DNA of 49,144 bases, taken from NCBI GenBank assembly GCA_017527065.1, contig JAFXQO010000081.1, forward strand, positions 1 to 49,144. The letters are read 5' to 3'. The translations under genes were made by a program, and so were the position numbers. Positions 13,345 to 24,154 of this stretch are shown piece by piece. Source of the stretch: Clostridia bacterium. GTDB lineage: Bacteria > Bacillota > Clostridia > Christensenellales > Aristaeellaceae. Every line of letters begins with the position of its first letter. Within the stretch, counting starts at the first letter, position 1. The notes below the pieces were generated by a model. It saw only the letters and a list, made by a program, of their open reading frames with translations, was not told the origin of the DNA and searched no databases.

Positions 13345-13429
13345 GCTGATGTGGTGGAATGGCAGACACCGGGGACTTAAAATCCCTTGCTCCTGGAGCG
13401 TGCGGGTTCGAGTCCCGCCATCAGCACCA
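13345..13429 (+). tRNA. tRNA-Leu (UAA), CCA encoded
   Basis: An 85-nt class II tRNA. Acceptor arms GCTGATG and CATCAGC pair perfectly, discriminator A at 13426 and CCA at 13427-13429. The anticodon stem GGGGA/TCCCT holds the loop CTTAAAA with anticodon TAA at 13378-13380; a long variable arm (TGCTCCTGGAGCG) and the T arm GCGGGTTCGAGTCCCGC follow. The 3' end is the left attachment site of an integrated element: the last 20 bases up to the discriminator recur at 23039-23058. Confidence 0.97.
13407..13426 (+). repeat. attL core (20-bp direct repeat, left copy)
   Basis: TTCGAGTCCCGCCATCAGCA, the T-loop through discriminator of tRNA-Leu. Identity with the right copy stops exactly at the discriminator base; CCA follows here but TGG follows at the right copy. 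Confidence 0.92.
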
Positions 13430-13438
13430 AGAGAAAAC

Positions 13439-13470
13439 GCCTGAAATCATTGGGATTTCGGGCTTTTTTT
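13439..13470 (+). terminator. tRNA-Leu terminator
   Basis: GCC-T-GAAATC at 13439-13448 pairs with GATTTC-G-GGC at 13454-13463, followed by seven T. A near-copy of the whole hairpin lies beyond the right attachment site (23070-23101). Confidence 0.85.
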
Positions 13471-13489
13471 ATGCGGATTTTTGGCGTTT

Positions 13490-13512
13490 TACCCCTAATT
13501 TTACCCCTAACA
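13490..13512 (+). promoter_or_regulatory. Integrase arm-type site, left end
   Basis: Two head-to-tail ACCCCTAA units separated by TTTT, within a 23-bp stretch repeated exactly at 22912-22934. It begins 63 bp inside the left core repeat. Paired direct repeats near both ends of an element are what arm-binding domains of tyrosine integrases recognise. The surrounding 13471-13761 has no gene I can support; it also holds the inverted repeat ATGACG-TTTG-CGTCAT near 13633-13652. Confidence 0.65.
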
Positions 13513-13761
13513 GGTTTTTATACCCCAATTCTGAGCGAAAAAACGGCTCAAATCCTATCGTTTGGAGCATAGAAAAGGCAGGACGGTTTTTTCCATCCTG
13601 CCGGGCTGTGGTTTAGGGTAAGAAATCAAGCTGAATGACGTTTGCGTCATGATCAGGGATCATAATCCAGTCGAATGAGATTTGCGTTCGGGGTGGCTGC
13701 CAGATTCTTGACGTATAGTTTCCGTTGTACAATGTAGAATGCATAGACGTGAGGACATGCC

Positions 13762-13959
13762 TCAACTCTTACTGCTATCTTCCTTGTTTTCATTCTTCGT
13801 CGCCTCCCTCTGCGCATATTCTACCAATATGTCATACGCCGCGCGCCTCTGCGCCTCGATACGCCGCGCCTCCTCCTCGCTGCCCTTCGGAGCCATGAAA
13901 TCATCGTGAATCCGCACCAGTGCGCCGTTGCTCGCCCGAATTTCTGCCACAACCGCCAT
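13762..13959 (-). CDS. Hypothetical protein, 65 aa
   Basis: Not recognised. MAVVAEIRASNGALVRIHDDFMAPKGSEEEARRIEAQRRAAYDILVEYAQ: a short beta-like start, then a charged helix from about residue 25 to the end. Start chosen at the ATG with AAAGGA six bases upstream; the frame is open a few codons further. Last gene of the leftward trio at the left end of the element. The helix and size recall small element-encoded accessory proteins, but no function can be given. Confidence 0.55.
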   Translation of the reverse strand: MAVVAEIRASNGALVRIHDDFMAPKGSEEEARRIEAQRRAAYDILVEYAQREATKNENKEDSSKS

Positions 13960-14078
13960 TGGTATCCTTCCTTTCATTTGACATTCACTGTGGAGCTATG
14001 ATATACTCGTCTCAGCCCCGCGGCCTTCTGTGTTTCGTCGTGTGGCCCGGCCTGCCGCTGTACCAGAGCGGCGGGCCT

Positions 14079-14267
14079 TTACTTGTTCGCCATGATCGCC
14101 GCCGCGCGCTGGGCCTCCGCCTCGGTCAGGTTCCCGCCGATCATGTAGCGCAGCGCGAGCGCCGCGTCGGCCAGCGTGTCAAACCGGGCGAGAACGCCGT
14201 CGCGGTCGTCCAGCAGCCAATAGGAATCCGGCTTGCCGCCTCTGCCGCGCACATGTCTAACCATCAT
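14079..14267 (-). CDS. Hypothetical protein, 62 aa
   Basis: Not recognised. Sequence MMVRHVRGRGGKPDSYWLLDDRDGVLARFDTLADAALALRYMIGG looks like a small alpha/beta protein with a predicted C-terminal helix (LTEAEAQRAAAIMANK). The ATG at 14267 has AGGAGGT at ideal spacing and overlaps the stop of the gene upstream by 4 nt, so the two are coupled. Confidence 0.6.
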   Translation of the reverse strand: MMVRHVRGRGGKPDSYWLLDDRDGVLARFDTLADAALALRYMIGGNLTEAEAQRAAAIMANK

Positions 14268-14590
14268 GCTACCACCTCCTGCGTCTGGCTCTCGGCGAAG
14301 AAGCTGCCCGTGTAGGTCGCGCCGTCGCCCCGGCTGCCGTAGATCAGCACCGCCTGAAACAGTGCCTTGCTGCCGTGGATCACCTCGCGGCCTCTTGCCT
14401 TCCAGCCCGCCCAGGTGTTCACGGCCTCGGAGACGCCCGCCGCGGTCCTTGCCGCCTCGATGCGCGCCGCGTTGATGGGTTCCGCCTTCGCGCTCAGCCA
14501 GGCCCTGTGAAGGGCCTCGGAGAAGCTCACAGCCGCCTTGCGGAAGATGCGCCACGCGTGGGCCATGATCTCCCTCAGATCGTACTTCAT
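14264..14590 (-). CDS. Conserved hypothetical protein of mobile elements, 108 aa
   Basis: MKYDLREIMAHAWRIFRKAAVSFSEALHRAWLSAKAEP is a type of N-terminus I recognise from small proteins of Firmicute plasmids and prophages, without known function. The rest contains NTWAGWKARGREVIHGSKALFQAVLIYGSRGDGATYTGSFF. The ATG at 14590 has AAGGAGGT seven bases upstream. It is transcribed divergently from the ribbon-helix-helix gene; the shared upstream region (14591-14884) holds palindromic operator-like sites. Confidence 0.65.
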   Translation of the reverse strand: MKYDLREIMAHAWRIFRKAAVSFSEALHRAWLSAKAEPINAARIEAARTAAGVSEAVNTWAGWKARGREVIHGSKALFQAVLIYGSRGDGATYTGSFFAESQTQEVVA

Positions 14591-14693
14591 GCCTCTTACC
14601 TCCTTTTCCTCTTGTTCCTTGCCGGGTTCAGCTTGGGGGAAGGTGCGGGGGCGTTGCGTCACAGGTCTTATTGTCGCCTCACGCATCCTTGTC

Positions 14694-14744
14694 CGCATTT
14701 GACCTCCGGGCTGCCATTGCGTTCCCCGAAGTGCCTTCCCTCAA
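14694..14744 (+). repeat. 51-bp segment shared with 24104-24154 (inverted copy 1)
   Basis: Begins CGCATTTGACCTCCGGGC and ends CCTTCCCTCAA. Forty-seven of 51 positions match the reverse complement of 24104-24154. Each copy stands at the same place upstream of a ribbon-helix-helix gene, so it is a module in common rather than a random repeat. Confidence 0.85.
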
Positions 14745-14763
14745 GCTCTGGATATATTATATA

Positions 14764-14843
14764 CCTTGTACAAGTATATGTCTATTGGCCAAAGCACTAG
14801 ACTTGTACAAGTATTTTTGTGCAAGATATATACTTGTACAACT
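14764..14843. promoter_or_regulatory. Three palindromic operator-like sites
   Basis: CCTTGTACAAGT (14764-14775), ACTTGTACAAGT (14801-14812, a perfect 12-bp palindrome) and ACTTGTACAACT (14832-14843). The third covers the -35 of the ribbon-helix-helix promoter; the first is 5 bp from a TATAAT on the minus strand (14754-14759) that could serve the leftward trio. Such sites fit autorepression by the antitoxin-like protein (inference). Confidence 0.65.
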
Positions 14844-14862
14844 CATTTCAGCATGATATAAT
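14834..14862 (+). promoter_or_regulatory. Promoter of the ribbon-helix-helix/MazF-type operon
   Basis: TTGTAC (14834-14839), 17-bp spacer, TATAAT (14857-14862). The -35 lies within the third ACTTGTAC palindrome, giving a direct mechanism for repression. Confidence 0.75.
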
Positions 14863-14884
14863 GCTATTGTTAGGGGGTGTAACT

Positions 14885-15121
14885 TTGGAAAACCAGACAA
14901 ACGGAAAAGCAAGCACCAGGGCCAAAAATAAATACAATGCGGCAAACTATGATAGCTTGCGCATCGTCGTCCCAAAGGGCCGTAAAGCCACCGTAGAGGC
15001 GTTCGCCCGTGAACATGGGGAATCTGTCAACGGCCTTGTAAACACGCTTCTGCGGGCTGAAATGGGGCTTTCAGAGGCAGAATGGAAGAAAGGCGAGGCG
15101 GAGGAAACAAAAGACGATTGA
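14885..15121 (+). CDS. Ribbon-helix-helix protein, probable antitoxin
   Basis: A 78-residue protein with a basic N-terminal tail and an Arc/MetJ-like fold: YDSLRIVVPKGRKATVEAFAREHGESVNGLVNTLL has the beta strand (LRIVVP) and two helices typical of these DNA-binding dimers. The best start is a TTG at 14885 with AGGGGGTG upstream; earlier codons run through the promoter. It precedes the MazF/PemK-type gene by 23 nt under one promoter with palindromic operators, the usual antitoxin-toxin order. A paralogue is encoded at 23775-23993. Confidence 0.8.
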   Translation: MENQTNGKASTRAKNKYNAANYDSLRIVVPKGRKATVEAFAREHGESVNGLVNTLLRAEMGLSEAEWKKGEAEETKDD

Positions 15122-15144
15122 CTGCATAACATAGGAGGAAGAAC

Positions 15145-15765
15145 ATGCCGAACATTGATCTTCAGGAAACTCAGGATGAATTGCAATGGCTTGATAAGAA
15201 GCTCGAAATCAAAGCACGTCGCCTCGCCAGTGGGCAAAGTATCATGGTGCGGCGCGGAGAAGTGTATGGATGCGATTTCGGCTATAATATCGGCGTCGAG
15301 TTGCGCGGATATCATCCATGTGTGATCGTAGAGAATGACGCAACATCTGCCACGAGGTGGAGTGTTTGCGTCGCCCCTATCACCCATGCATCCCAACGCC
15401 AGCATATGCCGGCCTCACTGGTTCCCATAACCCGGCAAGCAGGCGCAGATGGCAAAACCATCATTGAAGGTTATGCAGATGTCGCAGGCATACGGGCAGT
15501 CAGTAAAGCCCGACTTACAAAACGCATTACGCGGCTTTTGCCTTCCGATATGCTGGAAATTGATAAGGCTCTTGCGTCAATTACTGATCTTTATGAGCAT
15601 TATAAGAGAATGTCCGCAAAATATGACGCTGCAAAGAAGCGCGGCGACGCGAAAGAAGAAAAGGCGAAAAAGCTGCGCCAACTACTTATAGAAGCCGAGA
15701 AAATTCTTACCGGCGATGCAGACGACGATTTGCGGCAAAGAATCGCCGAAGCATTGAAACTTTGA
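15145..15765 (+). CDS. PemK/MazF-family toxin with N- and C-terminal extensions
   Basis: A 206-residue protein. Residues about 34-130 are a PemK/MazF ribonuclease-type domain: MVRRGEVYGCDFGYNIGVELRGYHPCVIVEND then WSVCVAPITHA, with the conserved R-G-E-V/I-x-x-x-D-F and R-P-like turn (here RGYHP). Family toxins are near 115 residues; here there is a 33-residue charged N-terminal extension and an alpha-helical, probably coiled-coil C-terminal region (about 140-206, YKRMSAKYDAAKKRGDAKEEKAKKL). Start ATG has AGGAGG upstream. It follows the ribbon-helix-helix gene and is followed by an apparent ncRNA. Confidence 0.8.
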   Translation: MPNIDLQETQDELQWLDKKLEIKARRLASGQSIMVRRGEVYGCDFGYNIGVELRGYHPCVIVENDATSATRWSVCVAPITHASQRQHMPASLVPITRQAGADGKTIIEGYADVAGIRAVSKARLTKRITRLLPSDMLEIDKALASITDLYEHYKRMSAKYDAAKKRGDAKEEKAKKLRQLLIEAEKILTGDADDDLRQRIAEALKL

Positions 15766-15783
15766 AAAAATAGTTTAAAACTA

Positions 15784-15811
15784 TTGACAAAAGGACAGAA
15801 TATGATATCAT
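15784..15811 (+). promoter_or_regulatory. Promoter of the intergenic ncRNA
   Basis: TTGACA (15784-15789) and TATCAT (15806-15811) with a 16-bp spacer, 18 nt after the toxin stop. No open reading frame with a ribosome binding site follows, and a terminator lies about 115 nt downstream. Confidence 0.65.
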
Positions 15812-15817
15812 TGAGGT

Positions 15818-15940
15818 ATCGGAAAGTCCGGCTTTGACCAGCTGGGCGGTGAGGGAGAAATCCCCTTCATCGATAAAGGCGCTCCTGACCGGGTGCCTAC
15901 TCAATGAAACAGGGTGGAGCAATCCATCCTGTTTTGTTTT
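15818..15940 (+). ncRNA. Candidate small RNA downstream of the MazF-type gene
   Basis: A promoter-to-terminator unit of about 120 nt without a coding frame. Predicted elements: TATCG (15817-15821) pairing with CGATA (15871-15875) around hairpins CGGA-AAG-TCCG and GGGA-GAAA-TCCC; a separate hairpin at 15878-15897 (GGCGCTC..GGGTGCC); and an intrinsic terminator with an 11-bp stem (15908-15918 with 15923-15933, GCAA loop) followed by TTTGTTTT. I do not recognise an established RNA family. Confidence 0.55.
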
Positions 15941-15987
15941 GCAAGTCTCGTGATAGCGGTTTACGCCCTAAAGCGTTGATGAAAAAT

Positions 15988-16024
15988 GCCTCCGGCAGTT
16001 GCGACCTGCTCGGAGGCGTTTTTT
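15988..16024. terminator. Bidirectional terminator
   Basis: GCCTCCG-GCAG (15988-15998) pairs with CTGC-T-CGGAGGC (16006-16017), with GTTTTTT on the plus side and an A-run before it that gives a T-run on the minus strand. It separates the ncRNA unit from the end of the minus-strand operon (stop at 16144). The rest of 15941-16143 has no gene I can support. Confidence 0.85.
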
Positions 16025-16143
16025 GCGGTAGTCTCTAAAAACTACAGCGGGAATGTTTCCCGATTGCAATACCATTGTACAGCATCGGCGGCGGCGTGTC
16101 AAGCGTTTGCCGCCCTTTTTGAGCGGTTTTCACTCATGGCCGC

Positions 16144-16836
16144 TCAGTTATCGACGGCCTGTGAGAAAATATCATAGGGCGTGGAGATATTGCGCGCGTA
16201 GAAATCAGATACGCTCTCATACGGCGGTTCCTGCGGCAGATCGTCCGGGTTGATGTGTTCATTGTGAATATCCGCCTGTCGAAGTCTGTTCAGTTCAGCG
16301 GCCCGTGTCGCGCCGGTGCCATTCAAAACGCGCTTGCAGGCTTCGAGAAGGTTATTGATAACCCGTTCCCCCTCTGCGATGGACAGGCCCGCCGTGGCGA
16401 GGGCGTTATAGTTGGGGTGGGCTACGCCACTGTTCTGCGCGATTTCCTCAACAACGGCAAGGCCCGCGCCATTTCCGCACATGGCGTTTGCCGCCGCGTC
16501 AAGCTCATTTAAGGTCACTTTCTCGCGCATTTTGAGGGCTTGCAGGATTCGCAGTTGTTCCTCAGTCGGCGCGGCCATTGCGCGCACACTGTTGGCCTTT
16601 CGCATGGAAGCAATCATAACATCAACCGTGTCGGCGGCTTTCGCTCTGGCCTCGTCCACAGTGGCGCGGCGAGCCTTTTCTGCTTCCTTGCGGGCATCGT
16701 TATAGTATTTGCTGCCCTTCGCCGTTTCTATTGGCTTCATCTTTGCAAAGTATTCAGCGCGGGCCGCGATACGCGCATCGGTGAAATCCTTCATGGCAGA
16801 ATAGAGAATTTCCGTTCTTTTCATCGGTTCCAACAT
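16144..16836 (-). CDS. Hypothetical charged helical protein, 230 aa
   Basis: Not recognised. Residues about 15-80 are rich in Lys, Glu and Ala (YNDARKEAEKARRATVDEARAKAADTVDVMIASMRKA) and probably form a long coiled coil; the second half (about 95-230) has shorter helices and ends in YARNISTPYDIFSQAVDN. No signal peptide or membrane segment. The start has AAGAAGGT upstream. It is the last gene of the minus-strand operon. A scaffold-like or virion-related accessory role is possible for a satellite but is only a guess. Confidence 0.6.
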   Translation of the reverse strand: MLEPMKRTEILYSAMKDFTDARIAARAEYFAKMKPIETAKGSKYYNDARKEAEKARRATVDEARAKAADTVDVMIASMRKANSVRAMAAPTEEQLRILQALKMREKVTLNELDAAANAMCGNGAGLAVVEEIAQNSGVAHPNYNALATAGLSIAEGERVINNLLEACKRVLNGTGATRAAELNRLRQADIHNEHINPDDLPQEPPYESVSDFYARNISTPYDIFSQAVDN

Positions 16837-16871
16837 GGTTATACCTTCTTTCCGGGCGTGCTGCCCTTAAT

Positions 16872-17066
16872 TTATGTCGTTTTCTGCCCGGCCTCATCCG
16901 GCACATGCAGCACAACGTCCAGCCACACCGCATCCTCCGGCACGGCGTCTATTTCGACCTCTTTTTCGGTTCCATCCGACAGCCTCACCAGTGCGCGCAC
17001 ATAGGGCAGTTTTCCCCGCATTTTCCCCGCTAAAAGCGCGTCAAGCCGCTTACGTATCGTCCGCAT
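16872..17066 (-). CDS. Hypothetical protein, 64 aa
   Basis: Not recognised. MRTIRKRLDALLAGKMRGKLPYVRALVRLSDGTEKEVEIDAVPEDAVWLDVVLHVPDEAGQ: a basic amphipathic start and then an acidic, mostly beta-like half. The ATG at 17066 overlaps the stop of the TerS-like gene by 17 nt, with GAGG upstream. Position between the TerS-like gene and the 230-aa gene suggests an accessory role to one of them. Confidence 0.55.
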   Translation of the reverse strand: MRTIRKRLDALLAGKMRGKLPYVRALVRLSDGTEKEVEIDAVPEDAVWLDVVLHVPDEAGQKTT

Positions 17067-17409
17067 TTTCCAGCGCCTCCAGCCGCTCTTCGATGTCCGC
17101 AAATTCCGCCACGCGCAGTCCGTCCGCGATGATGATCCGCGCGGCGCGGATGCGGTCGGCGTCCTCCGCCCCGTCGCTGTTCATGATGTCCGCCAACACG
17201 TTCACCGCCGCGGGCATGTGCTTCTGCATTTCGGCGGAGGCGGATTTCAGCAGATCGGCACAGGCTTTTTTGTATTCCGTGGCAAATTCGGGCATTTGCC
17301 GGAAATTATAGGCCGTGCGCACGCTCACGCCCGCCGCCCTCGCCGCCGCCTCGATGGTCGGTTCAGTCAGCAACGCGCGCAGAAGCCGCGTCTGCGTTGG
17401 TGTTAGCAT
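17050..17409 (-). CDS. Helix-turn-helix protein, small-terminase-like
   Basis: A 119-residue protein. LTPTQTRLLRALLTEPTIEAAARAAGVSVRTAYNFRQMPEF is the N-terminal helix-turn-helix seen in phBC6A51-type and other small terminase subunits, and the rest (YKKACADLLKSASAEMQK..AAVNVLADIM..RIRAARIIIADGLRVAE) is the oligomerising helical part with the usual R-x-x-A-A-x-x-I. TerS proteins select DNA for packaging; without a large subunit here it would have to act with a helper phage terminase. A plain regulator is the alternative. Its 5' end overlaps the sigma gene by 47 nt. Confidence 0.6.
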   Translation of the reverse strand: MLTPTQTRLLRALLTEPTIEAAARAAGVSVRTAYNFRQMPEFATEYKKACADLLKSASAEMQKHMPAAVNVLADIMNSDGAEDADRIRAARIIIADGLRVAEFADIEERLEALENADDT

Positions 17410-18094
17410 CCATTTTCACCTCTTTCCCGATGCGCCGCAGCGCCGCGTCCTCGACGACGCTCGACCAGCTTGTATTGAAGGCCCTGACGCCCTTTCGCGC
17501 ATAGAAGTTTGTCTGTAAATCCAGCCAGTAGGCCCGCAGCGCCATGTCCTGCCGCAGGTGATTCATTCCGCGCCGCCCGGCCCGTTTCAGTGCCTCCGCC
17601 GCCTCGCCGGTCTCAGCGGCCAGCGCGCCGTAACTCAGGCCGTGCAGCTCATGCCATTCGATCACGGCCCGCTCAGGCCCTTCCAGACGCGCCACGGCGG
17701 CGCGCACCGTCTCGCGGGTCTGTTCCCGCTGCATCGCCTCACAGGCGTCCGGCAGGCTCTCATCCGCGATCATATCGCCGATAGTGTCGCCGTCAGGATC
17801 GTCGCCGGAAAGCGGCGCGTTCAGGCTCACCGCGCCCAGATCGGCGCGGCGGCGGGCGGAGGCGACGCCCAGCAGCGCGCGTATTTCCCGCTGTATGTGC
17901 CATCCAGCCCACCCCGCCCATGTCTTCCCGCCGTTTGGATCGAAGGTCTCAGCGGCCTTCCATACGCCGATATGCCCGGCCTGTATCAGGTCTTCGAGGT
18001 CTGCCGCGCGGTTCAATTCGCAGAGGCGGAGGTAGCGGCGCGCAATCAGGCAGATCAAGCCGTGATTTGCCTTTGACAGGGCTTCTAGGTCCAT
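17363..18094 (-). CDS. Sigma-70 family RNA polymerase sigma factor
   Basis: A 243-residue sigma factor. Region 2 (about residues 5-75): HGLICLIARRYLRLCELNRAADLEDLIQAGHIGVWKAAETFDPNGGKTWAGWAGWHIQREI, with the core-binding LEDLIQAGxIGxxKA motif. Region 4 (about 140-190): RLEGPERAVIEWHELHGLSYGALAAETGEA with a helix-turn-helix. Region 3 is mostly replaced by an acidic stretch. A dedicated sigma factor probably switches on late genes of the element or of a partner phage (inference). ATG at 18094 has GGGAGG upstream. The 3' end overlaps the next gene. Confidence 0.8.
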   Translation of the reverse strand: MDLEALSKANHGLICLIARRYLRLCELNRAADLEDLIQAGHIGVWKAAETFDPNGGKTWAGWAGWHIQREIRALLGVASARRRADLGAVSLNAPLSGDDPDGDTIGDMIADESLPDACEAMQREQTRETVRAAVARLEGPERAVIEWHELHGLSYGALAAETGEAAEALKRAGRRGMNHLRQDMALRAYWLDLQTNFYARKGVRAFNTSWSSVVEDAALRRIGKEVKMDANTNADAASARVAD

Positions 18095-18165
18095 TTGACA
18101 GCACCTCCCGGAGATGGTAGAATAATCGTGCATTTTCCATCCCGCCGCCTCCGGGCGGCTTTTTT
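18095..18165 (+). promoter_or_regulatory. Plus-strand promoter-terminator pair inside the minus-strand operon
   Basis: TTGACA (18095-18100) and TAGAAT (18118-18123) with an exact 17-bp spacer point rightward; about 20 nt further GCCGCC-TCCG-GGCGGC followed by TTTTTT (18144-18165) is a textbook terminator in the same direction. Together they would make an RNA of about 35 nt, antisense to the gap between the sigma and Cys-rich genes. No gene on the plus strand accounts for them. Confidence 0.5.
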
Positions 18166-18877
18166 ACGCCCCTTCCAGCGCCTCCGCCTCCGTGCCCGAC
18201 AGCATGGGCGAGAGCGCGCCCATGAGCGGCGCAATCTCTTCATCACGCACCCGCCCGGCACACTGGAACATGATCTGGCTGTACTCGATCCCGGCCCCGC
18301 TGGTCGCCTTCATGAGGGAGAAGCGCGTCGCCACCTGCCACGGCTGCAGGCCCCGCGGCGACAGCACCCGCGCCACATACTGCGCCCAGTTCGCCACGCT
18401 CATCGTGGGCACCTTCAGCGCCACAGGCAGCGGCTCGCCCTCCGCCATCACAAGAAGCTGCACCATATTCCGGCAGGCCTTGCCCCGGCCTCCGTCCCGG
18501 CTCCCCATCCGGTTCCACGGGCAGGCCCGGCAGGCGTGTTCCACGCCCTCCGTGTCATAGCCGCTCAGGCCGTCCCGGCTCATGCAGCGCGGCGTCCTGT
18601 CCGCGCCCGCCTCGCCGTATTCATGATCCCAGCGCGCATTGATGAAGCTGGCGCTCAGCACGATCCCCGTGAAGCTGGTCACGTACTCCGGCGCGTCTGG
18701 CGTATCACCCGGAAACTCGAAGGCCTTCCCGCCGCCGGCGGGCACATGCACCCGGCTCACGGGCAGCTCACTGGCCCCGGCCAGCGCCTCCACCGTGCGG
18801 CGTATGATGTCGATGGTTCCGCCCACCTGCATGGTGCTGGCGGGCAGCTCCGCCGTCAGGTCTGAAAGTCGTCCCAT
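18164..18877 (-). CDS. Cys-rich phage-type protein next to the exonuclease
   Basis: A 237-residue protein. Its core CRACPWNRMGSRDGGRGKACRN (about residues 115-136) with another Cys near 98 belongs to a phage family I recognise by the C-x2-C-P-x-N...GKGKACKN signature but cannot name; four cysteines suggest a metal site. Downstream, PVALKVPTMSVANWAQYVARVLSPRGLQPWQVATRFSL is a conserved block. Its place directly after YqaJ, where a single-strand-annealing or ssDNA-binding partner is usual, suggests a role in recombination or replication (inference). The ATG at 18877 is better spaced from GGAGG than the one at 18883. Confidence 0.65.
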   Translation of the reverse strand: MGRLSDLTAELPASTMQVGGTIDIIRRTVEALAGASELPVSRVHVPAGGGKAFEFPGDTPDAPEYVTSFTGIVLSASFINARWDHEYGEAGADRTPRCMSRDGLSGYDTEGVEHACRACPWNRMGSRDGGRGKACRNMVQLLVMAEGEPLPVALKVPTMSVANWAQYVARVLSPRGLQPWQVATRFSLMKATSGAGIEYSQIMFQCAGRVRDEEIAPLMGALSPMLSGTEAEALEGA

Positions 18878-18879
18878 GC

Positions 18880-19836
18880 TCATTCCTCCATTTCTGCGCC
18901 GCGCACCTTGAAAACGCGCGCGGTGGTCTCGGTTTTTACCGTGTCCAAATCCAAATCAGGGAACAGCGCGCGCAGCTTCTTTTCGCTGATTGAGCGCCGT
19001 GTCTGGTTCTTCCAGCTCGCCCGGGCGGAGGTTCCGTTCAGCGCCTCCGCCTCGCCCAGCCGCGCCTTCAGGCGGTTCTCCGCCTCGGCAATGCGCCGCT
19101 CCAGGGCCTTCTTACCCTGCTTCATATCCAGCAACTCCGCCATGAGCGCCTCATCCTCCGGCCCCGCGTCCAGCGTCAGGCCGTCCGCGCGGGGGTAGAG
19201 GGCCAGCAGCGCCGCGCCCGTGCTTTCCAGCCCGTCAGGCGGCGGAGGCTGCCGCTTCGCTACATGATCCCGCCAGAAGGATTCCTCCGCCTGAATGAGG
19301 GCTTCCAGATCGTCCCGCACCGTTTCCCGCTCAATGGTGAAGGTGAGCAGGTCGGTTCCGTACACCAGCACCGCCAGATACCAGCGCTCCCAGCCGGTGA
19401 CGGCCAGATAGTGAAGGCACTGCGCGTAGTATTCGAGCGGGTATTCCCCGTTCCGATAGCGCGTGAGATGCAGGTCTTTCGAGGTTTTGCATTCAAGCCC
19501 GGCCCGCTTGCCGATGATTCGCCGGTCGATGTCGGCGATCATGCAGGGGTGGGCCGTGGAGCGCAGCATGCCGTATTCCCGGCGGAGGCGGAGGCCGGTC
19601 TGCTCGGCAAAGCGCCGCGCGACGTATTCCTCAAGGTCTCGCCCTTGCCGCATGGCCTCGGTGTCATCCTCCGCCCGTTCCGCGCCCAGCTTATCGGCGT
19701 ACACGGAGAACGGCCCCTTGTAAGGATTCACGCCCAGCACCGCCGCCGCGTCGCTGCCCCCGATCCCGGAGCGGCGGAGGCGCAGCCAGTCCTCGCGCGG
19801 CAGACCGCGCACGTCGGCAAAGGTCGTGTAGTTCAT
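18880..19836 (-). CDS. YqaJ-type viral exonuclease
   Basis: A 318-residue lambda-exonuclease-family nuclease. N-terminal RRSGIGGSDAAAVLGVNPYKGPFSVYADKLG is the YqaJ signature; the PD-(D/E)XK site is the Asp of MIADIDRRI with the E-x-K of GLECKTSKDLHL, near residues 100-120. Residues about 235-285 are a predicted coiled coil. Such enzymes resect double-strand ends for annealing-type recombination together with a RecT-like partner, here perhaps the Cys-rich protein. It overlaps the nuclease gene upstream by 4 nt. Confidence 0.9.
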   Translation of the reverse strand: MNYTTFADVRGLPREDWLRLRRSGIGGSDAAAVLGVNPYKGPFSVYADKLGAERAEDDTEAMRQGRDLEEYVARRFAEQTGLRLRREYGMLRSTAHPCMIADIDRRIIGKRAGLECKTSKDLHLTRYRNGEYPLEYYAQCLHYLAVTGWERWYLAVLVYGTDLLTFTIERETVRDDLEALIQAEESFWRDHVAKRQPPPPDGLESTGAALLALYPRADGLTLDAGPEDEALMAELLDMKQGKKALERRIAEAENRLKARLGEAEALNGTSARASWKNQTRRSISEKKLRALFPDLDLDTVKTETTARVFKVRGAEMEE

Positions 19837-20159
19837 GGCCGCCCGCCTCCGCCCCGGAGCAGCCGCAGCCAGTCAGTCAGGTGCATGGTCACCAGCCAGG
19901 GCTGGCGGTTCCGCCTGTGCGCCACGAGAGGCACGCGGCCCGCCGCGTCATGCTCTGCCTGGTGCATGGCCTCGCCTATGTTCAGGCGCTCCACGCGCTT
20001 GACCTCGAAGTGATAGCCCTCCAGCCCTTCCGCGCTGATGTCGGGGTTGTCGTAGCCGCCCACGTCCCGCTGGTCGTTGCGGTGGGCGGGAAAACCTGCT
20101 TCCGTCAGGAGGGAGGCGAGTTCGCGCTCGCCTGCGCTGCCCTTCTTCTTGCAATTCAC
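19833..20159 (-). CDS. Hjc-like Holliday junction resolvase/nuclease
   Basis: A 108-residue small PD-(D/E)XK protein. KKKGSAGERELASLLTEAGFPAHRND has the conserved Glu, NPDISAEGLEGYHFEVKRVE holds the D and E-x-K catalytic triad at about residues 38-56, and the end (PWLVTMHLTDWLRLL) is typical of phage resolvase-like nucleases. It would resolve recombination or replication intermediates before packaging. The start is taken as GTG at 20159; no ATG is available nearby and the ribosome binding site is weak. Overlaps yqaJ-type gene by 4 nt. Confidence 0.78.
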   Translation of the reverse strand: MNCKKKGSAGERELASLLTEAGFPAHRNDQRDVGGYDNPDISAEGLEGYHFEVKRVERLNIGEAMHQAEHDAAGRVPLVAHRRNRQPWLVTMHLTDWLRLLRGGGGRP

Positions 20160-20165
20160 GAGGTT

Positions 20166-20813
20166 TCAACCCCCTTCTATTCGTGCCAGAGCCTCGGCCA
20201 TGTTCTTGTCAGTGATTGCCCGCAGTTCCTCTTCAGAATACCGCCGTTGATCGAAGGCAAGCGCGGTCGGCGTTTTCTCTTCGCGCCGTAATGTGCCTGC
20301 ACGGGTCAAGGCCGCGTAGCCACGGAGCCATTTTCTCCAGTCCCGCACCGGCTCGCCTCTACTGTCCTTCCAGCCTTCCCCCTCGCAGTCGGCCAGAAAG
20401 CGCGCAGCATCGATTTGTAGCCCTGCCCTCCTAATCTCTGCCTCAATTTCGCTGAGAGAGGGAGGGGAGAGAGAAGATTGTACTTCCGTTCCTGATTCTT
20501 TTACCGATTCTGATTCTGTTTGGATGCATTCGGATGCGGTCGGATGCGGTCGCATTCGGTCGGACTTCCAGCGCTGCGCGGACGCCTCGCGCCGCTGAGC
20601 CACCTGTCGTGAATACTTAGTCGCGTCGCGGTCGATCTTCGCACGAAATAGCACGAACAGAGCGTCTAGTGTCACATCATCGAAGGCGGGTGCTGCACCT
20701 TCCAGTGCATAGTGATAAAGGCCACAGACAAAGGCCTTGTACTGAGAATCGGGGAGCTTTTCCAAAGCCGCCAAATCTTCCAGATAGAGAATAAGCCCCG
20801 GTTGTCCGCTCAT
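20166..20813 (-). CDS. Replication-type protein with DUF6291-like N-terminus
   Basis: A 215-residue protein. The N-terminal part (LILYLEDLAALEKLPDSQYKAFVCGLYHYALEG...LFRAKIDRDATKYSRQVAQRREASAQRW) resembles DUF6291, common at the start of phage replisome-organiser proteins. A low-complexity linker (about residues 88-120, rich in Ser, Glu and Pro) follows, then a DnaD-like C-terminal part ending WKDSRGEPVRDWRKWLRGYAA. The linker DNA contains tandem 10-bp repeats (20521-20563) that could be the origin. It overlaps the excisionase-like gene by 4 nt. Confidence 0.7.
   Translation of the reverse strand: MSGQPGLILYLEDLAALEKLPDSQYKAFVCGLYHYALEGAAPAFDDVTLDALFVLFRAKIDRDATKYSRQVAQRREASAQRWKSDRMRPHPTASECIQTESESVKESGTEVQSSLSPPSLSEIEAEIRRAGLQIDAARFLADCEGEGWKDSRGEPVRDWRKWLRGYAALTRAGTLRREEKTPTALAFDQRRYSEEELRAITDKNMAEALARIEGG
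20521..20563. repeat. Tandem 10-bp repeats, candidate origin iterons
   Basis: TGGATGCATT, CGGATGCGGT, CGGATGCGGT, CGCATTCGGT, CGG in direct succession, inside the linker of the replication gene. Origins embedded in initiator genes are known from lambdoid and Firmicute phages; here it is an inference from repetition and position. Confidence 0.5.
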
Positions 20814-21001
20814 CGAATCCCCTCGTCATTCTCGACGGTCTGCCGTTCAAGCCACGCCCGTAGCGCATCGACCGGAATGACAATTCGGCGACCGATCCTC
20901 ACAGCCGGGAAATCGGTTCGTTTTACCAACTCGTAAGCCGTATTCCGACCGACGCCCAGCACACGGGGAAGCTCAGTCGCGGAGATAGTAAGTTTTTCCA
21001 T
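20810..21001 (-). CDS. Excisionase-like helix-turn-helix protein
   Basis: A 63-residue protein: TISATELPRVLGVGRNTAYELVKRTDFPAVRIGRRIVIPVDALRAWLERQ is the MerR-like winged helix of the excisionase/DNA-binding family (helix-turn-helix 17). Such proteins bend attachment-site DNA and direct excision, or activate early genes. It is the first gene of the minus-strand operon and faces the repressor gene, the usual control switch of satellites and prophages. ATG has AGGAGG upstream. Confidence 0.85.
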   Translation of the reverse strand: MEKLTISATELPRVLGVGRNTAYELVKRTDFPAVRIGRRIVIPVDALRAWLERQTVENDEGIR

Positions 21002-21038
21002 TGAAAATTCCTCCTTTTGAGAAAATTATCTAGGCCCC

Positions 21039-21067
21039 TTGTGTTTTGCTTAATCCTATGCTACAAT
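21039..21067 (+). promoter_or_regulatory. Repressor-integrase promoter
   Basis: TTGTGT (21039-21044), 17-bp spacer, TACAAT (21062-21067), reading into the repressor gene. The divergent region 21002-21130 must also hold the early minus-strand promoter, which I could not place with confidence. Confidence 0.6.
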
Positions 21068-21130
21068 GATTTTGCATGGAAATCAAGTCAGTATTCCGAT
21101 CATTTTTGCACACAGAAAGGTGTGTTTTGC

Positions 21131-21715
21131 GTGGATAATCAATCAAAAAAGAAAAGAGTGTCAGACCTAACGCTGTGGCCGATTGCTGAAAGAATCCGAC
21201 ATATACGAAAAGATTTGCTCAATATGTCACAAGAGAAATTTGCGGAAGAAATGGGTGTCGGCAGGTCGGCAGTAAGTGACTGGGAGGGCCAGTATACCCC
21301 TATTGACGCCCGCAATCTTATGAAGCTATGTGAATTGTCTGGATGCGATGCAGATTATATCCTAGGCCGAATTGATGAAAAGACACATGATATTAAACAT
21401 ACTAAACAAGTAACTGGTCTTTCTGAAAGTGCAATCGAGTATATTATTTCTTGGAAAGATGCTCAAAATTGTAGCTGTAAATGGGCATCTTATCTGTCTC
21501 AGATGATTGAATCTCATGAATTTGTAGATATGATGAATCATTTGTCATCCTTTGTTAATGCTGATATAGCAATGGAAAGGGCATTAGAATTAGGAGATAG
21601 GCAACTATTTGAAAAATTGGCAGAATCACAAACTGCTAATTTATGGTACACATCAAAACGATTTGCTGATATTCTCGAACATTTTCCAATACCAACCGAA
21701 CACTTTCCAACATGA
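21131..21715 (+). CDS. XRE-family repressor
   Basis: A 194-residue regulator. Residues about 12-75 are an XRE helix-turn-helix (IAERIRHIRKDLLNMSQEKFAEEMGVGRSAVSDWEGQYTPIDARNLMKLCELSGCDADYILG). The C-terminal part is not LexA-like: no Ser-Lys protease pair is visible, so control is unlikely to be through RecA self-cleavage. Start GTG at 21131 with AAGGTG upstream; the open frame further up crosses the promoter. It is markedly more AT-rich than the other element genes. It is followed after 15 nt by the integrase gene and faces the excisionase-like gene, so it is the presumed master repressor. Confidence 0.85.
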   Translation: MDNQSKKKRVSDLTLWPIAERIRHIRKDLLNMSQEKFAEEMGVGRSAVSDWEGQYTPIDARNLMKLCELSGCDADYILGRIDEKTHDIKHTKQVTGLSESAIEYIISWKDAQNCSCKWASYLSQMIESHEFVDMMNHLSSFVNADIAMERALELGDRQLFEKLAESQTANLWYTSKRFADILEHFPIPTEHFPT

Positions 21716-21730
21716 ACAGGAGGTAACACA

Positions 21731-22903
21731 ATGCCCACGAAAAAGCGCGGCGCGAACGGCGGAGGCACGATCCGCCAGCGGCCAGATGGAACATGGGAGG
21801 CCCGCGTCACCGTCGGCACGAATCCCGGCACGGGCAAGCCAAACCGCAAGAGCATATACGGGAAGACGCAGAAGGAAGTCCGGCAGAAGATGCAGAAGGC
21901 CCTTGTCGCCGTGAATGAGGGCGTCTATTCCGAACAGTCGAAGCTCACGCTCAAAGAGTGGATGAAGACATGGCTCGAAGAATACACCAGCGACGTGAAA
22001 GAAGCCACGCGCATACGCTACCGGCAGGACATGGATAACCACATCCTCCCCGCGCTGGGCGCCGTGAAGCTGTCCGCGCTCACGCCCTCCGCCGTGCAGA
22101 CGTTCTATAACAGCCTCTCGCGTGGTGATAAGCCGCTCTCGGCGAAGTCAATCAAGAATATTCACGGCGTGCTTCACCATGCCCTTAAACAGGCTGTGCG
22201 CCTCGGTTATATGCGCACGAATCCCACGGAGGCATGCACCATTCCGCGCATAGAGAAAGCGCAGATTGAGCCGCTTGACGTGCCGGAAATCAAGGCGCTG
22301 CTGGGCGCGCTGGACGACGATGTGTTCTCCACGATTATTCAGGTGGATTTGTTCACCGGCCTCCGTTCCGGCGAGATTCTGGGCCTGACATGGCCGTGCG
22401 TCGATTTCGAGCGTGGTCTGCTCCGCATCGACAAACAGCTCTACCGGCCCCGGCAAAAGGGCGAGGCTTACCACTTCGCCAGCCTGAAGAACGACAAGCC
22501 GCGCGTGATCCAGCCCGCGCCGTTCGTGCTGCAGCTTCTCAAACAGCGCCGCCTCAAACAGGCGGAGGAACGCATGCGCGCCGGTTCGCTGTGGAATGAC
22601 GGCGGTCTGCCTGATTTGGTTTTCACCAGTGAAACGGGAAAGAATCTCGATTCCGCGACAGTCCTCCGCCATTTGAAGCGCCGCCTTCACGCGGCGGGCA
22701 TGCCGGACAAGCGCTTTCACGATCTGCGCCACACCTTTGCCGTCACGTCGCTGCTGGCGGGCGATGATGTGAAAACCGTGCAGGAAAACCTCGGTCATCA
22801 TACCGCCGCCTTCACGCTTGACCAGTACGGCCATGTCACGGAAACCATGCGCGAGGCGTCCGCGCGGCGCATGCAGGCGTTTGTGGACGGTCTGAAACCG
22901 TGA
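21731..22903 (+). CDS. int: Tyrosine site-specific integrase
   Basis: A 390-residue recombinase that joins the element to the tRNA-Leu site. N-terminal arm-binding domain (about 1-50, GTIRQRPDGTWEARVTVG), SAM-like core-binding domain (about 70-160, LTLKEWMKTWLEEY), catalytic domain from about 175. The active-site residues are Arg212 in FTGLRSGE, the H-x-x-R of HDLRHTFA, His in ENLGHHTAAFT and the nucleophile Tyr in LDQYGH. AGGAGGT precedes the ATG. The stop is 8 nt before the right arm-type repeat and 135 nt before the right core, the usual position next to an attachment site. Confidence 0.96.
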   Translation: MPTKKRGANGGGTIRQRPDGTWEARVTVGTNPGTGKPNRKSIYGKTQKEVRQKMQKALVAVNEGVYSEQSKLTLKEWMKTWLEEYTSDVKEATRIRYRQDMDNHILPALGAVKLSALTPSAVQTFYNSLSRGDKPLSAKSIKNIHGVLHHALKQAVRLGYMRTNPTEACTIPRIEKAQIEPLDVPEIKALLGALDDDVFSTIIQVDLFTGLRSGEILGLTWPCVDFERGLLRIDKQLYRPRQKGEAYHFASLKNDKPRVIQPAPFVLQLLKQRRLKQAEERMRAGSLWNDGGLPDLVFTSETGKNLDSATVLRHLKRRLHAAGMPDKRFHDLRHTFAVTSLLAGDDVKTVQENLGHHTAAFTLDQYGHVTETMREASARRMQAFVDGLKP

Positions 22904-22911
22904 GCATTTTC

Positions 22912-22934
22912 TACCCCTAATTTTACCCCTAACA
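22912..22934 (+). promoter_or_regulatory. Integrase arm-type site, right end
   Basis: Exact 23-bp copy of 13490-13512 with the same two ACCCCTAA units, 8 nt after the integrase stop and 104 bp before the right core. Same orientation as the left copy. Confidence 0.65.
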
Positions 22935-23038
22935 CGTCGGCACCGACAAACACAGCGCAAAACTATGCAACACGAAACCCCTTGAAATTATTGACATTTC
23001 AACACGTGGTAACACGCCGCAAAACGTACCCCGATGAA

Positions 23039-23058
23039 TTCGAGTCCCGCCATCAGCA
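23039..23058 (+). repeat. attR core (20-bp direct repeat, right copy)
   Basis: Exact copy of 13407-13426, 135 bp after the integrase stop. It is not part of a tRNA: no 5' half precedes it and the CCA is replaced by TGG. Confidence 0.92.
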
Positions 23059-23069
23059 TGGAGGAAAAA

Positions 23070-23101
23070 GCCTTGAAATCGTGGGGATTTCGGGGCTTTT
23101 T
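23070..23101 (+). terminator. Second copy of the tRNA-Leu type terminator
   Basis: GCC-TT-GAAATC (23070-23080) pairs with GATTTC-GG-GGC (23086-23096), followed by five T. It has no tRNA in front of it; together with 13439-13470 it shows that similarity at the two ends extends beyond the 20-bp core. Confidence 0.7.
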
Positions 23102-23118
23102 CTATGCTGAAAAAAGGC

Positions 23119-23140
23119 TTTTAACCACAGTTTTGACCAC
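23119..23140 (+). repeat. Doubled ACCACA-type repeat, arm-site-like
   Basis: AACCACAGTTTTGACCACAA: two ACCACA units with a TTTT-containing spacer, at the same relative position as the ACCCCTAA pair at 13490-13512. Probably the arm site of a different integrase (inference). Confidence 0.45.
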
Positions 23141-23159
23141 AATTCGGAAAAAAGGCATG

Positions 23160-23202
23160 AAAAAACGGGCGAAGGCAAAGTCAGTTTCCTGCCGTTCGCC
23201 CG
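23160..23202 (-). terminator. Terminator of the YgiT/DUF4258 operon
   Basis: On the minus strand CGGGCGAA (23202-23195) pairs with TTCGCCCG (23173-23166), extended by an inner GGC/GCC, and a T-run follows. It lies 47 nt past the zinc-finger gene stop. Confidence 0.75.
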
Positions 23203-23248
23203 ATGAAAAGGGCCTGCAAAAGAGCCCCGCGGCGGAGGCTCGGAAACA

Positions 23249-23479
23249 TCAGGCCACGTCTTCCCGGTAATTGACGACCGTCACCTCCGCCATAGCGCTG
23301 CGAACAGCCTTGACGATCTTCTCCAGGTTGGCGGATACCTTGCCGCTGTAGGCAATTTCACCGCACTCGCCGCATTTCATACAGGGCACATGGCGCACGA
23401 CGATGCAGCAGTCGTCGGTATCGGCCACAAAGGTGGTCGTCCCTTCTGTCATTTCGCCCTTGCACTTAAAGCATTTCAT
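23249..23479 (-). CDS. YgiT-type zinc finger protein, probable antitoxin
   Basis: A 76-residue protein with two CxxC pairs: MKCFKCKGEM at the N-terminus and PCMKCGECGEIAYSG in the middle, the YgiT/MqsA-type zinc finger. MqsA is the antitoxin of an mRNA interferase and a DNA-binding regulator; here the C-terminal DNA-binding domain is reduced to a short helix (LEKIVKAVRSAMAEV). It is preceded after 2 nt by a DUF4258 gene, a known pairing. ATG at 23479 has AAGGAAG upstream; the longer frame is not supported. Confidence 0.82.
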   Translation of the reverse strand: MKCFKCKGEMTEGTTTFVADTDDCCIVVRHVPCMKCGECGEIAYSGKVSANLEKIVKAVRSAMAEVTVVNYREDVA

Positions 23480-23481
23480 GC

Positions 23482-23778
23482 TCACACTTCCTTTCGCGTT
23501 TTCAGATCGGCGCTCCACTTTGCCGGGTCAGGGATATAGACTGTGACCAGCCAGAGCCGCCCGTCGCCCAGCCCGGCGACGACATGCAGCCCGTTCCCGA
23601 GCAGCAGGCAGCTTGGGTAAGGATAATCATTCGGGTATTCTTCAATGATCTCGCCGCACAGAATAGCTTGCTTCACCTGCTCTATTTCTATGCCGCGCTC
23701 AATGATTCGTTTCAGGCAGTGCTGCGAAATGACGATGGTTTCATCTTCGCACAGCGTCCGCAATGCCCCGATATTCAT
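23482..23778 (-). CDS. DUF4258 protein, probable toxin
   Basis: A 98-residue protein: VISQHCLKRIIERGIEIEQVKQAILCGEIIEEYPNDYPYPSCLLLGNGLHVVAGLGDGRLWLVTVYIPDPAKW. The H-x-x-x-R-x-x-x-R-G start, the G-E-I-I-E-x-Y-P-x-x-x-P-Y-P segment and the end VTVYxPDPxxW are the DUF4258 pattern, a RelE-like or BrnT-like small family that is repeatedly next to YgiT zinc fingers and thought to be the toxin. Ribonuclease activity is not proven. It overlaps the ribbon-helix-helix gene by 4 nt (ATGA), so three genes form one operon. Confidence 0.8.
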   Translation of the reverse strand: MNIGALRTLCEDETIVISQHCLKRIIERGIEIEQVKQAILCGEIIEEYPNDYPYPSCLLLGNGLHVVAGLGDGRLWLVTVYIPDPAKWSADLKTRKEV

Positions 23779-23993
23779 TCCTCCGCCTCGCTTTCATTCC
23801 GCCGCCACTGTGCCTCTGTAAATCCCATGCCGGCCCGCAGCAGCGCGTTCACCGGCCCGTTGACCGATTCCTTGCGCTGGGCGTGGGCCTTCGTGGCGGC
23901 CTTGCGGCCCTTGGGAATGGTTATAGCAAGGCGGTCATATGCCTTTTCATTGTATCGCTGTTGCACTGCACTGAAAGTCTTTGTTTTTTCCAT
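23775..23993 (-). CDS. Ribbon-helix-helix protein, paralogue of 14885-15121
   Basis: A 72-residue Arc-like protein: YNEKAYDRLAITIPKGRKAATKAHAQRKESVNGPVNALLRAGMGFTEAQWRR. It matches the ribbon-helix-helix protein of the intact element nearly residue for residue in the core (IPKGRKA, ESVNG-VN-LLRA-MG). A Pro in place of Leu in the second helix (NGPVNALL) and a shortened loop (AHAQRKE) may weaken folding. ATG at 23993 has GAAGGAG seven bases upstream. It heads the operon with the DUF4258 and YgiT genes. Confidence 0.78.
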   Translation of the reverse strand: MEKTKTFSAVQQRYNEKAYDRLAITIPKGRKAATKAHAQRKESVNGPVNALLRAGMGFTEAQWRRNESEAEE

Positions 23994-24013
23994 ATTCAAA
24001 CTCCTTCGGATGT

Positions 24014-24061
24014 ATTATATCACAAATCCAATACTGGCACAAATATGTTACTATGTACATA
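24014..24061 (-). promoter_or_regulatory. Promoter and operator of the remnant's operon
   Basis: On the minus strand TTGTGC (24042-24037), a 17-bp spacer and TATAAT (24019-24014). A palindrome TATGTACATA at 24052-24061 lies just upstream of the -35 and shares the TGTACA centre with the operators at 14764-14843. Confidence 0.65.
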
Positions 24062-24103
24062 CTAACCTCAGTATTTTTGTATTTTTTGCCGTCTATACAT
24101 AGT

Positions 24104-24154
24104 TTGAGGGAAGGCGCTGCAGGGAACGCAATGGCCGCCCGGAGGTCAAATGCG
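24104..24154 (-). repeat. 51-bp segment shared with 14694-14744 (inverted copy 2)
   Basis: Read on the minus strand it begins CGCATTTGACCTCCGGGC and ends CCTTCCCTCAA, four mismatches from the other copy. It precedes the promoter of the second ribbon-helix-helix gene by about 60 bp. Confidence 0.85.

Follow-up and report, generated by a model that had tools for sequence, protein, structure and literature searches.

We analysed a 49,144-nucleotide stretch of Clostridia bacterium DNA (the window; assembly GCA_017527065.1, contig JAFXQO010000081.1) in which a 9,652 bp element, the span bounded by both copies of an exact 20-bp repeat, TTCGAGTCCCGCCATCAGCA, lies at a tRNA-Leu gene. The element is very probably an integrative phage satellite that redirects packaging through its own terminase small subunit (TerS), with a layout like that of the phage-inducible chromosomal islands (PICIs) without the PICI primase; a helper phage, induction and packaging are suggested by the genes that it carries. 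The original prediction had described a PICI-like satellite, and the compact tRNA-Leu element, the divergent modules, the TerS and a sigma factor of its own all bear this out, whereas the lack of a primase gene excludes the element from the PICIs in the strict sense.

The boundaries of the element are sharply defined. One copy of the repeat (13407-13426) lies within the 3' end of the tRNA-Leu (taa) gene that forms the integration site (13345-13429, plus strand; ARAGORN), and the other (23039-23058) at the integrase end, both read on the plus strand. These are the only two matches in the window, even when up to three mismatches are allowed (mean expected 0.01; two matches are reached in 0 of 100 shuffles), and the repeat can be extended to 63 nt at 81% identity. 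At 57.5%, the GC content of the element is lower than that of its two flanks (64.0% and 66.0%).

Of 20 open reading frames (ORFs) scanned with Pfam, 16 lie inside the element; PHROGs was applied to 11 element ORFs and NCBIfam to ten, with Pfam and NCBIfam judged by family cut-offs and PHROGs without cut-offs. The Pfam families above cut-off inside the element are integrase, HTH_3, HTH_17, DUF6291, YqaJ, Sigma70_r2 and PemK. Two genes run rightward (21017-22903, plus strand): an HTH_3 repressor (21017-21715, true start probably near 21128; PF01381, 1e-10) and a tyrosine integrase (21731-22903; PF00589, 2e-20; phrog_1, 6e-67). Facing them on the minus strand is a leftward run of mostly overlapping or near-abutting genes, which begins with an xis/AlpA-like excisionase (20810-21001; PF12728 (HTH_17), 6e-13; TIGR01764, 5e-9), a DUF6291 protein that is the likely replication initiator (20166-20813; PF19808, 1e-12), a small PDDEXK resolvase of RusA/Hjc-like type (19833-20159) and a YqaJ-like exonuclease (18880-19836; PF09588, 1e-31). 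It continues with a protein of phage replication modules (18164-18883), assigned to phrog_23155 from PHROGs and from the gene contexts of its relatives, and a sigma-70 family factor (17363-18133; region 2, 3e-11; 62% to that of locus L025) whose gene overlaps terS (17050-17409). A small gene directly 3' of terS (16872-17102; an ORF with no family above cut-off) and g230 (16144-16836), encoding 230 residues with no function assigned, close the run downstream of TerS. The strands and families thus agree with the integrase-repressor pair facing an excisionase/replication run that had been proposed, and with the proposed nuclease and sigma factor; the proposed Hjc-like resolvase is supported by phrog_244 (4e-20), with Pfam Hjc and PDDEXK_15 below their cut-offs. 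Among the element ORFs scanned, no portal, capsid, tail, large terminase (TerL), lysis or transfer family rises above a Pfam or NCBIfam cut-off, again as predicted. The sole virion label in PHROGs falls on the YqaJ protein, which has a minor match to phrog_19855 (1.8e-5) beside its best one to the RecE-like phrog_434 (1e-89).

Protein families, the gene context of homologs and the predicted fold together give good evidence, from sequence comparison and modelling, that the helix-turn-helix (HTH) protein encoded at 17050-17409 is the TerS that the original prediction had suspected. No Pfam family matches it, and its best match among the PHROG small-terminase families is to phrog_2538 (1.5e-6). 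In a phage collection it matched 25 records, and the 20 matches listed comprise 17 Streptococcus satellite phages, two human faecal contigs, which are the best two listed (42.5% and 34.5%), and one 30.7-kb phage; a genome contig collection held no close relatives. The faecal contig MT836267 is probably a circle of 11,334 bp, because its two ends share 124 bp (checked for the outermost 50 bp on either side); the genes for TerS and TerL (the latter Terminase_3, 2e-34) overlap on it. With this TerL as query 32 viral loci were found, 19 of which have a TerS homolog directly before TerL. The AlphaFold2 model of the window protein, built from 14 sequences, shows an HTH at the N terminus and a pair of long helices (predicted local distance difference test, pLDDT, 84.7). 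The first 16 PDB rows of a Foldseek search with this model are all chains of 2ao9 (a protein from a Bacillus phage) and of 7joq and 6w7t, the small terminases of NV1 and PaP3; 6w7t was also ranked top by the sequence profile (0.0035).

Several relatives of the element are likewise small and att-bounded. Among 300 genomes from the bacterial family to which the window belongs, 20 match a first TerS model at E <=0.001, the window's included; 12 of the other 19 were fetched and read (ten, and later two), and seven weaker ones lay outside this reading. Repeats of a tRNA end were sought at ten loci and exact att repeats found at six, bounding units of 4.8-9.7 kb: the window element, L086 (7,307 bp, 23-bp repeat), L087 (5,996 bp, 23-bp repeat), L091 (4,814 bp, 51-bp repeat), L308 (6,870 bp, 66-bp repeat) and L310 (5,968 bp, 23-bp repeat). 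No tRNA-end repeat was found at L085, L083, L023 or L025, and L083 and L025 are truncated by contig ends. A second TerS model (A5) matches the TerS slot in all six bounded units, in L308 and L310 only at about 6e-4; A5 contains the proteins of the window, L086 and L087 by construction, while the first model, which found L086, L087 and L091, held none of those three. All six carry an integrase, four g230, four the resolvase and two the sigma factor. A TerL model (A8), narrow in that it misses the TerL of the prophage on contig C72 described below, matches none of the six. Apart from the integrases, just one ORF of the five siblings is longer than 300 aa, a reverse ORF of 315 aa that overlies g230 in L308. 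No sibling ORF suits a TerL or a portal, and ten unassigned or regulator ORFs of the siblings, the 315-aa one included, match no Pfam virion family, with only HTH repressors above cut-offs.

The nearest sibling, L308 (genome G269), occupies a tRNA-Leu (gag) site and has an integrase 70% identical to that of the window, a repressor, an HTH_17/AlpA excisionase and a 239-aa replication-like gene without a Pfam match, then a sigma factor that matches that of the window at 35% (3e-27), TerS and g230, in this order. The original prediction had proposed to look for the same gene order at other tRNA-Leu sites, and sigma-TerS-g230 is kept at this one. The TerS of L308 belongs to Terminase_2 (PF03592, 1e-23, above cut-off), which we take to be the TerS family of the Staphylococcus aureus pathogenicity islands (SaPIs), and the corresponding slot of L310 holds a DUF5681 protein (4e-8, above cut-off). 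The position before g230 is thus filled by three proteins that Pfam does not group (the HTH type, Terminase_2 and DUF5681), each of them plausibly a TerS, and from these sequences the slot looks to have been swapped between relatives.

The sigma factor lies directly upstream of TerS in the window, in L308 and in L056, a 6.3-kb faecal contig (MT837714). L056 has the same layout as the window in another lineage, its order being xis, DUF6291, a gene similar to the helicase-loader-like gene in L023, sigma, then TerS, a 62-aa gene, a 221-aa protein (g221) and, by reading, RelBE. On the prophage-like contig L094 the sigma gene is followed by TerS and then by a gene read by eye as TerL. Sigma next to TerS looks like the arrangement with which a phage late operon begins. 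Four weak sigma loci were found in a viral contig collection, on contigs of 24.7-80.5 kb.

The replication module points to an origin within the putative initiator gene, an arrangement known from lambda-type phages. Four 10-bp iteron-like repeats, the presumed origin, lie at 20522-20561 within the DUF6291 gene (score 19, reached in 0 of 200 shuffles), and five of the seven corresponding genes have such repeats (window, L308, L056, L091 and L310, with scores unreached in 200 shuffles). The scores of L086 and L023 were reached by 14 and 173 of 200 shuffles, so no repeats were counted there; four control genes of the window (int, sigma, YqaJ and g230) have none. The test was devised after repeats had been seen in L308, and the region searched took in only 66 bp 3' of the DUF6291 gene. 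The phrog_23155 protein, possibly a single-stranded DNA-binding partner of YqaJ, was found at 17 places, from which 15 contigs were fetched and genes listed for L026-L028, L033 and two stretches of genome G101. Its relatives adjoin SNF2 and primase genes in two phages and also occur in contigs read as prophages, so the module is probably phage-derived; the viral contig collection holds no close relatives of the protein. L023, from the same genus and at the same tRNA-Leu, shares the resolvase, YqaJ and phrog_23155 genes at 86-96%.

Together these genes suggest a life cycle in which the repressor would keep the element silent until helper infection or induction, upon which the excisionase and integrase would excise it via the tRNA-Leu att sites. 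The DUF6291 protein would start replication at the iterons within its own gene, with the primase and helicase of host or helper, and the resolvase, YqaJ and phrog_23155 proteins may help to make or resolve concatemers. The sigma factor, as if it opened a late operon taken over from a phage, would switch on terS, the small gene and g230, and TerS together with the TerL of the helper would package element DNA into helper capsids. A TerL search of the same genome gave three places, C72, C36 (with an in-frame stop) and C29 (weak). Only C72 reads as a prophage, with a TerL and a portal of phrog_533, the portal family also found in the contigs L261, L263 and L265, and we regard this prophage as a candidate helper. 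The DNA that it shares with the element is limited to matches of 17-18 bp.

The protein g230 is a candidate new packaging factor. Homologs occur in L086, L308, L310, L264, L267 and L269, with a piece in L259; within the 300 genomes of the family four, the window's included, have the gene, and of the five places found three new stretches were read, L309 carrying a cut copy at a contig end. The AlphaFold2 model (pLDDT 84.8) is nearly all helical. A fold search returned nothing notable from the PDB and, as the best BFVD match, a siphophage protein at E 0.012; no close relatives of the g230 pair were found in the viral contig collection. Homology of g230 to g221 of L056, or to those that follow TerS in Javan343 and Javan328, was not supported by hhalign, and the Streptococcus post-TerS proteins reached only 14% probability against g221.

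Other related contigs differ in what they carry. Five IMG/VR contigs of 9.3-12.2 kb (L257, L262, L264, L266 and L269) have end overlaps of 37-127 bp, TerS, TerL, a recombinase of the phage-integrase family and an apparent ParA (ParA was found in four of seven contigs scanned, and in L264 and L269 by reading). None of the five matches PF05065, PF05133 or phrog_533, and they read as plasmid-like, with a full terminase and without a detected capsid or portal. Three larger contigs, L261, L263 and L265 (13.0-16.5 kb), have TerL and the phrog_533 portal but no PF05065 capsid match, and L265 has a tape-measure-like gene too. Neither PF05065 nor PF05133 matches any of 15 related records; PF05133 is a poor portal test, because within this set of 15 three records carry the portal of phrog_533. 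A separate hidden Markov model scan covered 80 integrase loci, of which two were read: L102 and L104, from Oscillospiraceae metagenome-assembled genomes, lie at tRNA-Val and have an integrase at 48-49%, xis, a ribbon-helix-helix (RHH)-like gene, a sigma factor and, by reading, an apparent Rep of rolling-circle type; TerS was not found in them.

A 30-40 kb phage integrated at tRNA-Leu might instead have lost its morphogenesis genes and kept its early genes, sigma factor and TerS. Such an origin would suit the phage homologs of most modules, the phrog_23155 relatives in phage genomes and prophage-like contigs, and the phage-like order of L094. We nevertheless consider a decayed prophage very improbable: six att-bounded units of 4.8-9.7 kb, each with its TerS slot filled, share one layout, which makes a deletion product unlikely, and in none of the loci read do virion genes accompany an int, xis, DUF6291 and g230 of the window's type. 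The outcome that the original prediction had named as contrary to it, the same genes in close relatives as part of a full 30-40 kb prophage, was accordingly not seen in these loci. It is very improbable, too, that the element moves independently of phages, for instance by conjugative mobilisation, with its phage genes as mere cargo. The related int, xis and RHH-like genes of L102 and L104, which have an apparent rolling-circle Rep and no detected TerS, and the plasmid-like circles sharing TerS, TerL and g230 are what such an element would lead one to expect, but the ORFs scanned contain no relaxase or transfer family in Pfam, PHROGs or NCBIfam, and the TerS slot is kept in every one of the six bounded relatives. 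Several further observations weigh against a TerS-redirecting satellite with the gene roles proposed here. The fold matches of TerS are weak (best E 0.017, TM about 0.4; none at E <0.001), and the TerS of the C72 prophage, identified by reading, is unmatched by the satellite TerS model. Among the nearest 80 integrase loci in named genomes only the distant L136 matches the TerS model at 1e-3, so the integrase type is not tied to the window's TerS type. No primase or helicase was found in the element ORFs by the Pfam, PHROGs and NCBIfam scans. L023 has neither a sigma nor a TerS match, and no att repeat of at least 13 bp was found for it. Lastly, L025, L233, L102 and L104 carry a sigma factor without a convincing TerS (L233 has one weak match, 7e-4), which also speaks against a link between sigma and helper infection, though the TerS model does not cover all TerS types, and one from a different family would go undetected.

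These last loci bear on what the sigma factor does within a satellite. That it turns on the late cassette of terS, the small gene and g230 is a suggestion on which we are evenly balanced. It may instead redirect host or helper transcription, or control early genes, leaving the packaging genes alone; this overlaps with the satellite reading as a whole and, within it, has a smaller but substantial likelihood. Sigma factors without a convincing TerS are what it would predict, whereas the position of sigma directly upstream of TerS in three elements argues for the late cassette, as does the ArpU-family activator downstream of TerS in four of eight Streptococcus satellites viewed. More tentatively still, and with some doubt, a Clostridia satellite lineage may be built on a portable late-switch cassette that combines a full sigma-70, an exchangeable TerS slot and the new protein g230. 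If so, the satellite would use the sigma factor to set the timing of its packaging genes itself, exchanges in the TerS slot would track the TerL of the helper, and g230 may target packaging by the helper or the helper's capsid.

The remaining features lie towards the ends of the element. Near the tRNA end, 14819-15765 holds a small gene and a toxin gene that add to the list of the original prediction. The toxin is of PemK/MazF type (15145-15765, plus strand; PF02452, 7e-18), and the small gene (14819-15121, plus strand) encodes a 100-aa Arc/RHH-like protein, so named by reading, without a Pfam match. This protein, a possible antitoxin of the PemK gene, recurs in nine of 16 loci tested, the window counted, and may be an element regulator and not only an antitoxin. 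At some loci it has no recognisable toxin beside it. An accessory gene of 144 aa (14264-14698, minus strand) is conserved in L023 and L025. A tandem repeat, two units of TTTTACCCCTAA, lies at 13487-13515 (plus strand) with a second copy at 22909-22937 (93%), and these presumably serve as integrase arm sites. The presumed arm repeats of L308 (6669-6690 and 13263-13284) lie at core distances resembling the window's (about 61 and 105 bp), and the int gene is on the opposite arm side in the two, as would follow from an inversion of the element body with respect to attP. Next to the int-end att copy lies the remnant of a second element (23039-24154), so the element is part of a tandem. Within the remnant, 23039-23219 matches the tRNA-proximal end, on the integrase side, of the L023 element at 88% identity, 23775-23999 holds a second RHH-like gene, and 24094-24154 is an inverted copy (89%) of 14694-14754.

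According to PMC10803314, the life of phage satellites is understood mostly through a restricted set from bacteria of clinical relevance. As described in the part of PMC13376191 seen, satellites span 7-20 kb between att repeats and have an integrase with regulatory and replication genes but no structural genes; the window element agrees with this description, and L087, L091, L308 and L310 fall below 7 kb. PICIs, in the excerpt of PMC6092414 available to us, have a specific att site, divergent repressor/int and xis/replication modules, pri and rep, an origin with iterons immediately 3' of rep and, in some, a terS homolog, together with phage-dependent induction, interference and packaging in phage-like particles. 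The window element shares the specific att site, the divergent modules and terS; it has no primase homolog, and its DUF6291 gene is a candidate rep only. By that description, as far as the excerpt gives it, the missing primase keeps the element from being a PICI. The SaPI-type PICIs are alike in layout, and L308 has their Terminase_2 type of TerS, but the window element has no pri-rep, its iterons lie inside the candidate initiator gene and no known capsid-remodelling gene was recognised. The minimal Vibrio satellites (phage-inducible chromosomal minimalist islands, PICMIs), whose model in the passages seen of PMC10803314 comprises int, AlpA, a DUF3987/DUF5906 primase and fis, are likewise very small, with an AlpA/xis type gene and no virion genes, whereas in the window element neither such a primase nor fis was seen and the site is tRNA-Leu.

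Capsid-forming PICIs have their own capsid, portal and terminase genes. The related larger contigs L261, L263 and L265 approach them with TerL and the phrog_533 portal, whereas capsid, portal and TerL were not found in the window element. The circular TerS-TerL contigs of 9.3-12.2 kb (e.g. L264 and L269) have the TerS family and g230 in common with the window but differ in having their own TerL and in being plasmid-like, not tRNA-integrated. The Streptococcus satellite phages (the Javan set; records of 8.2-14.7 kb) carry a TerS of the same family as the window's, at 29-34% identity. In the eight viewed the ArpU activators mentioned above are annotated as such, one Streptococcus ArpU-family protein matching the transcriptional activator family phrog_248; two of the eight end in RelB/RelE, and one primase, one replicative helicase and one helicase loader are annotated. 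By comparison, the window element has a full sigma-70 upstream of TerS, DUF6291, YqaJ, the resolvase and g230. In agreement with the original prediction, which knew of no PICI with this gene set, the titles and abstract openings found among Creative Commons-licensed PubMed Central papers describe no such satellite, and the search on sigma factors of PICIs and satellites gave a single paper, concerning prophage integrase typing. What emerges is a satellite of the usual size, PICI-like in its working, with a new gene set. What makes it notable is the sigma-TerS-g230 cassette together with the variable TerS slot. It provides a case in which the use of a full sigma factor by a satellite can be tested, and it belongs to a coherent satellite lineage of uncultured Clostridia-type genomes whose replication and late-control set differs from that of PICIs as the excerpt of PMC6092414 describes them.

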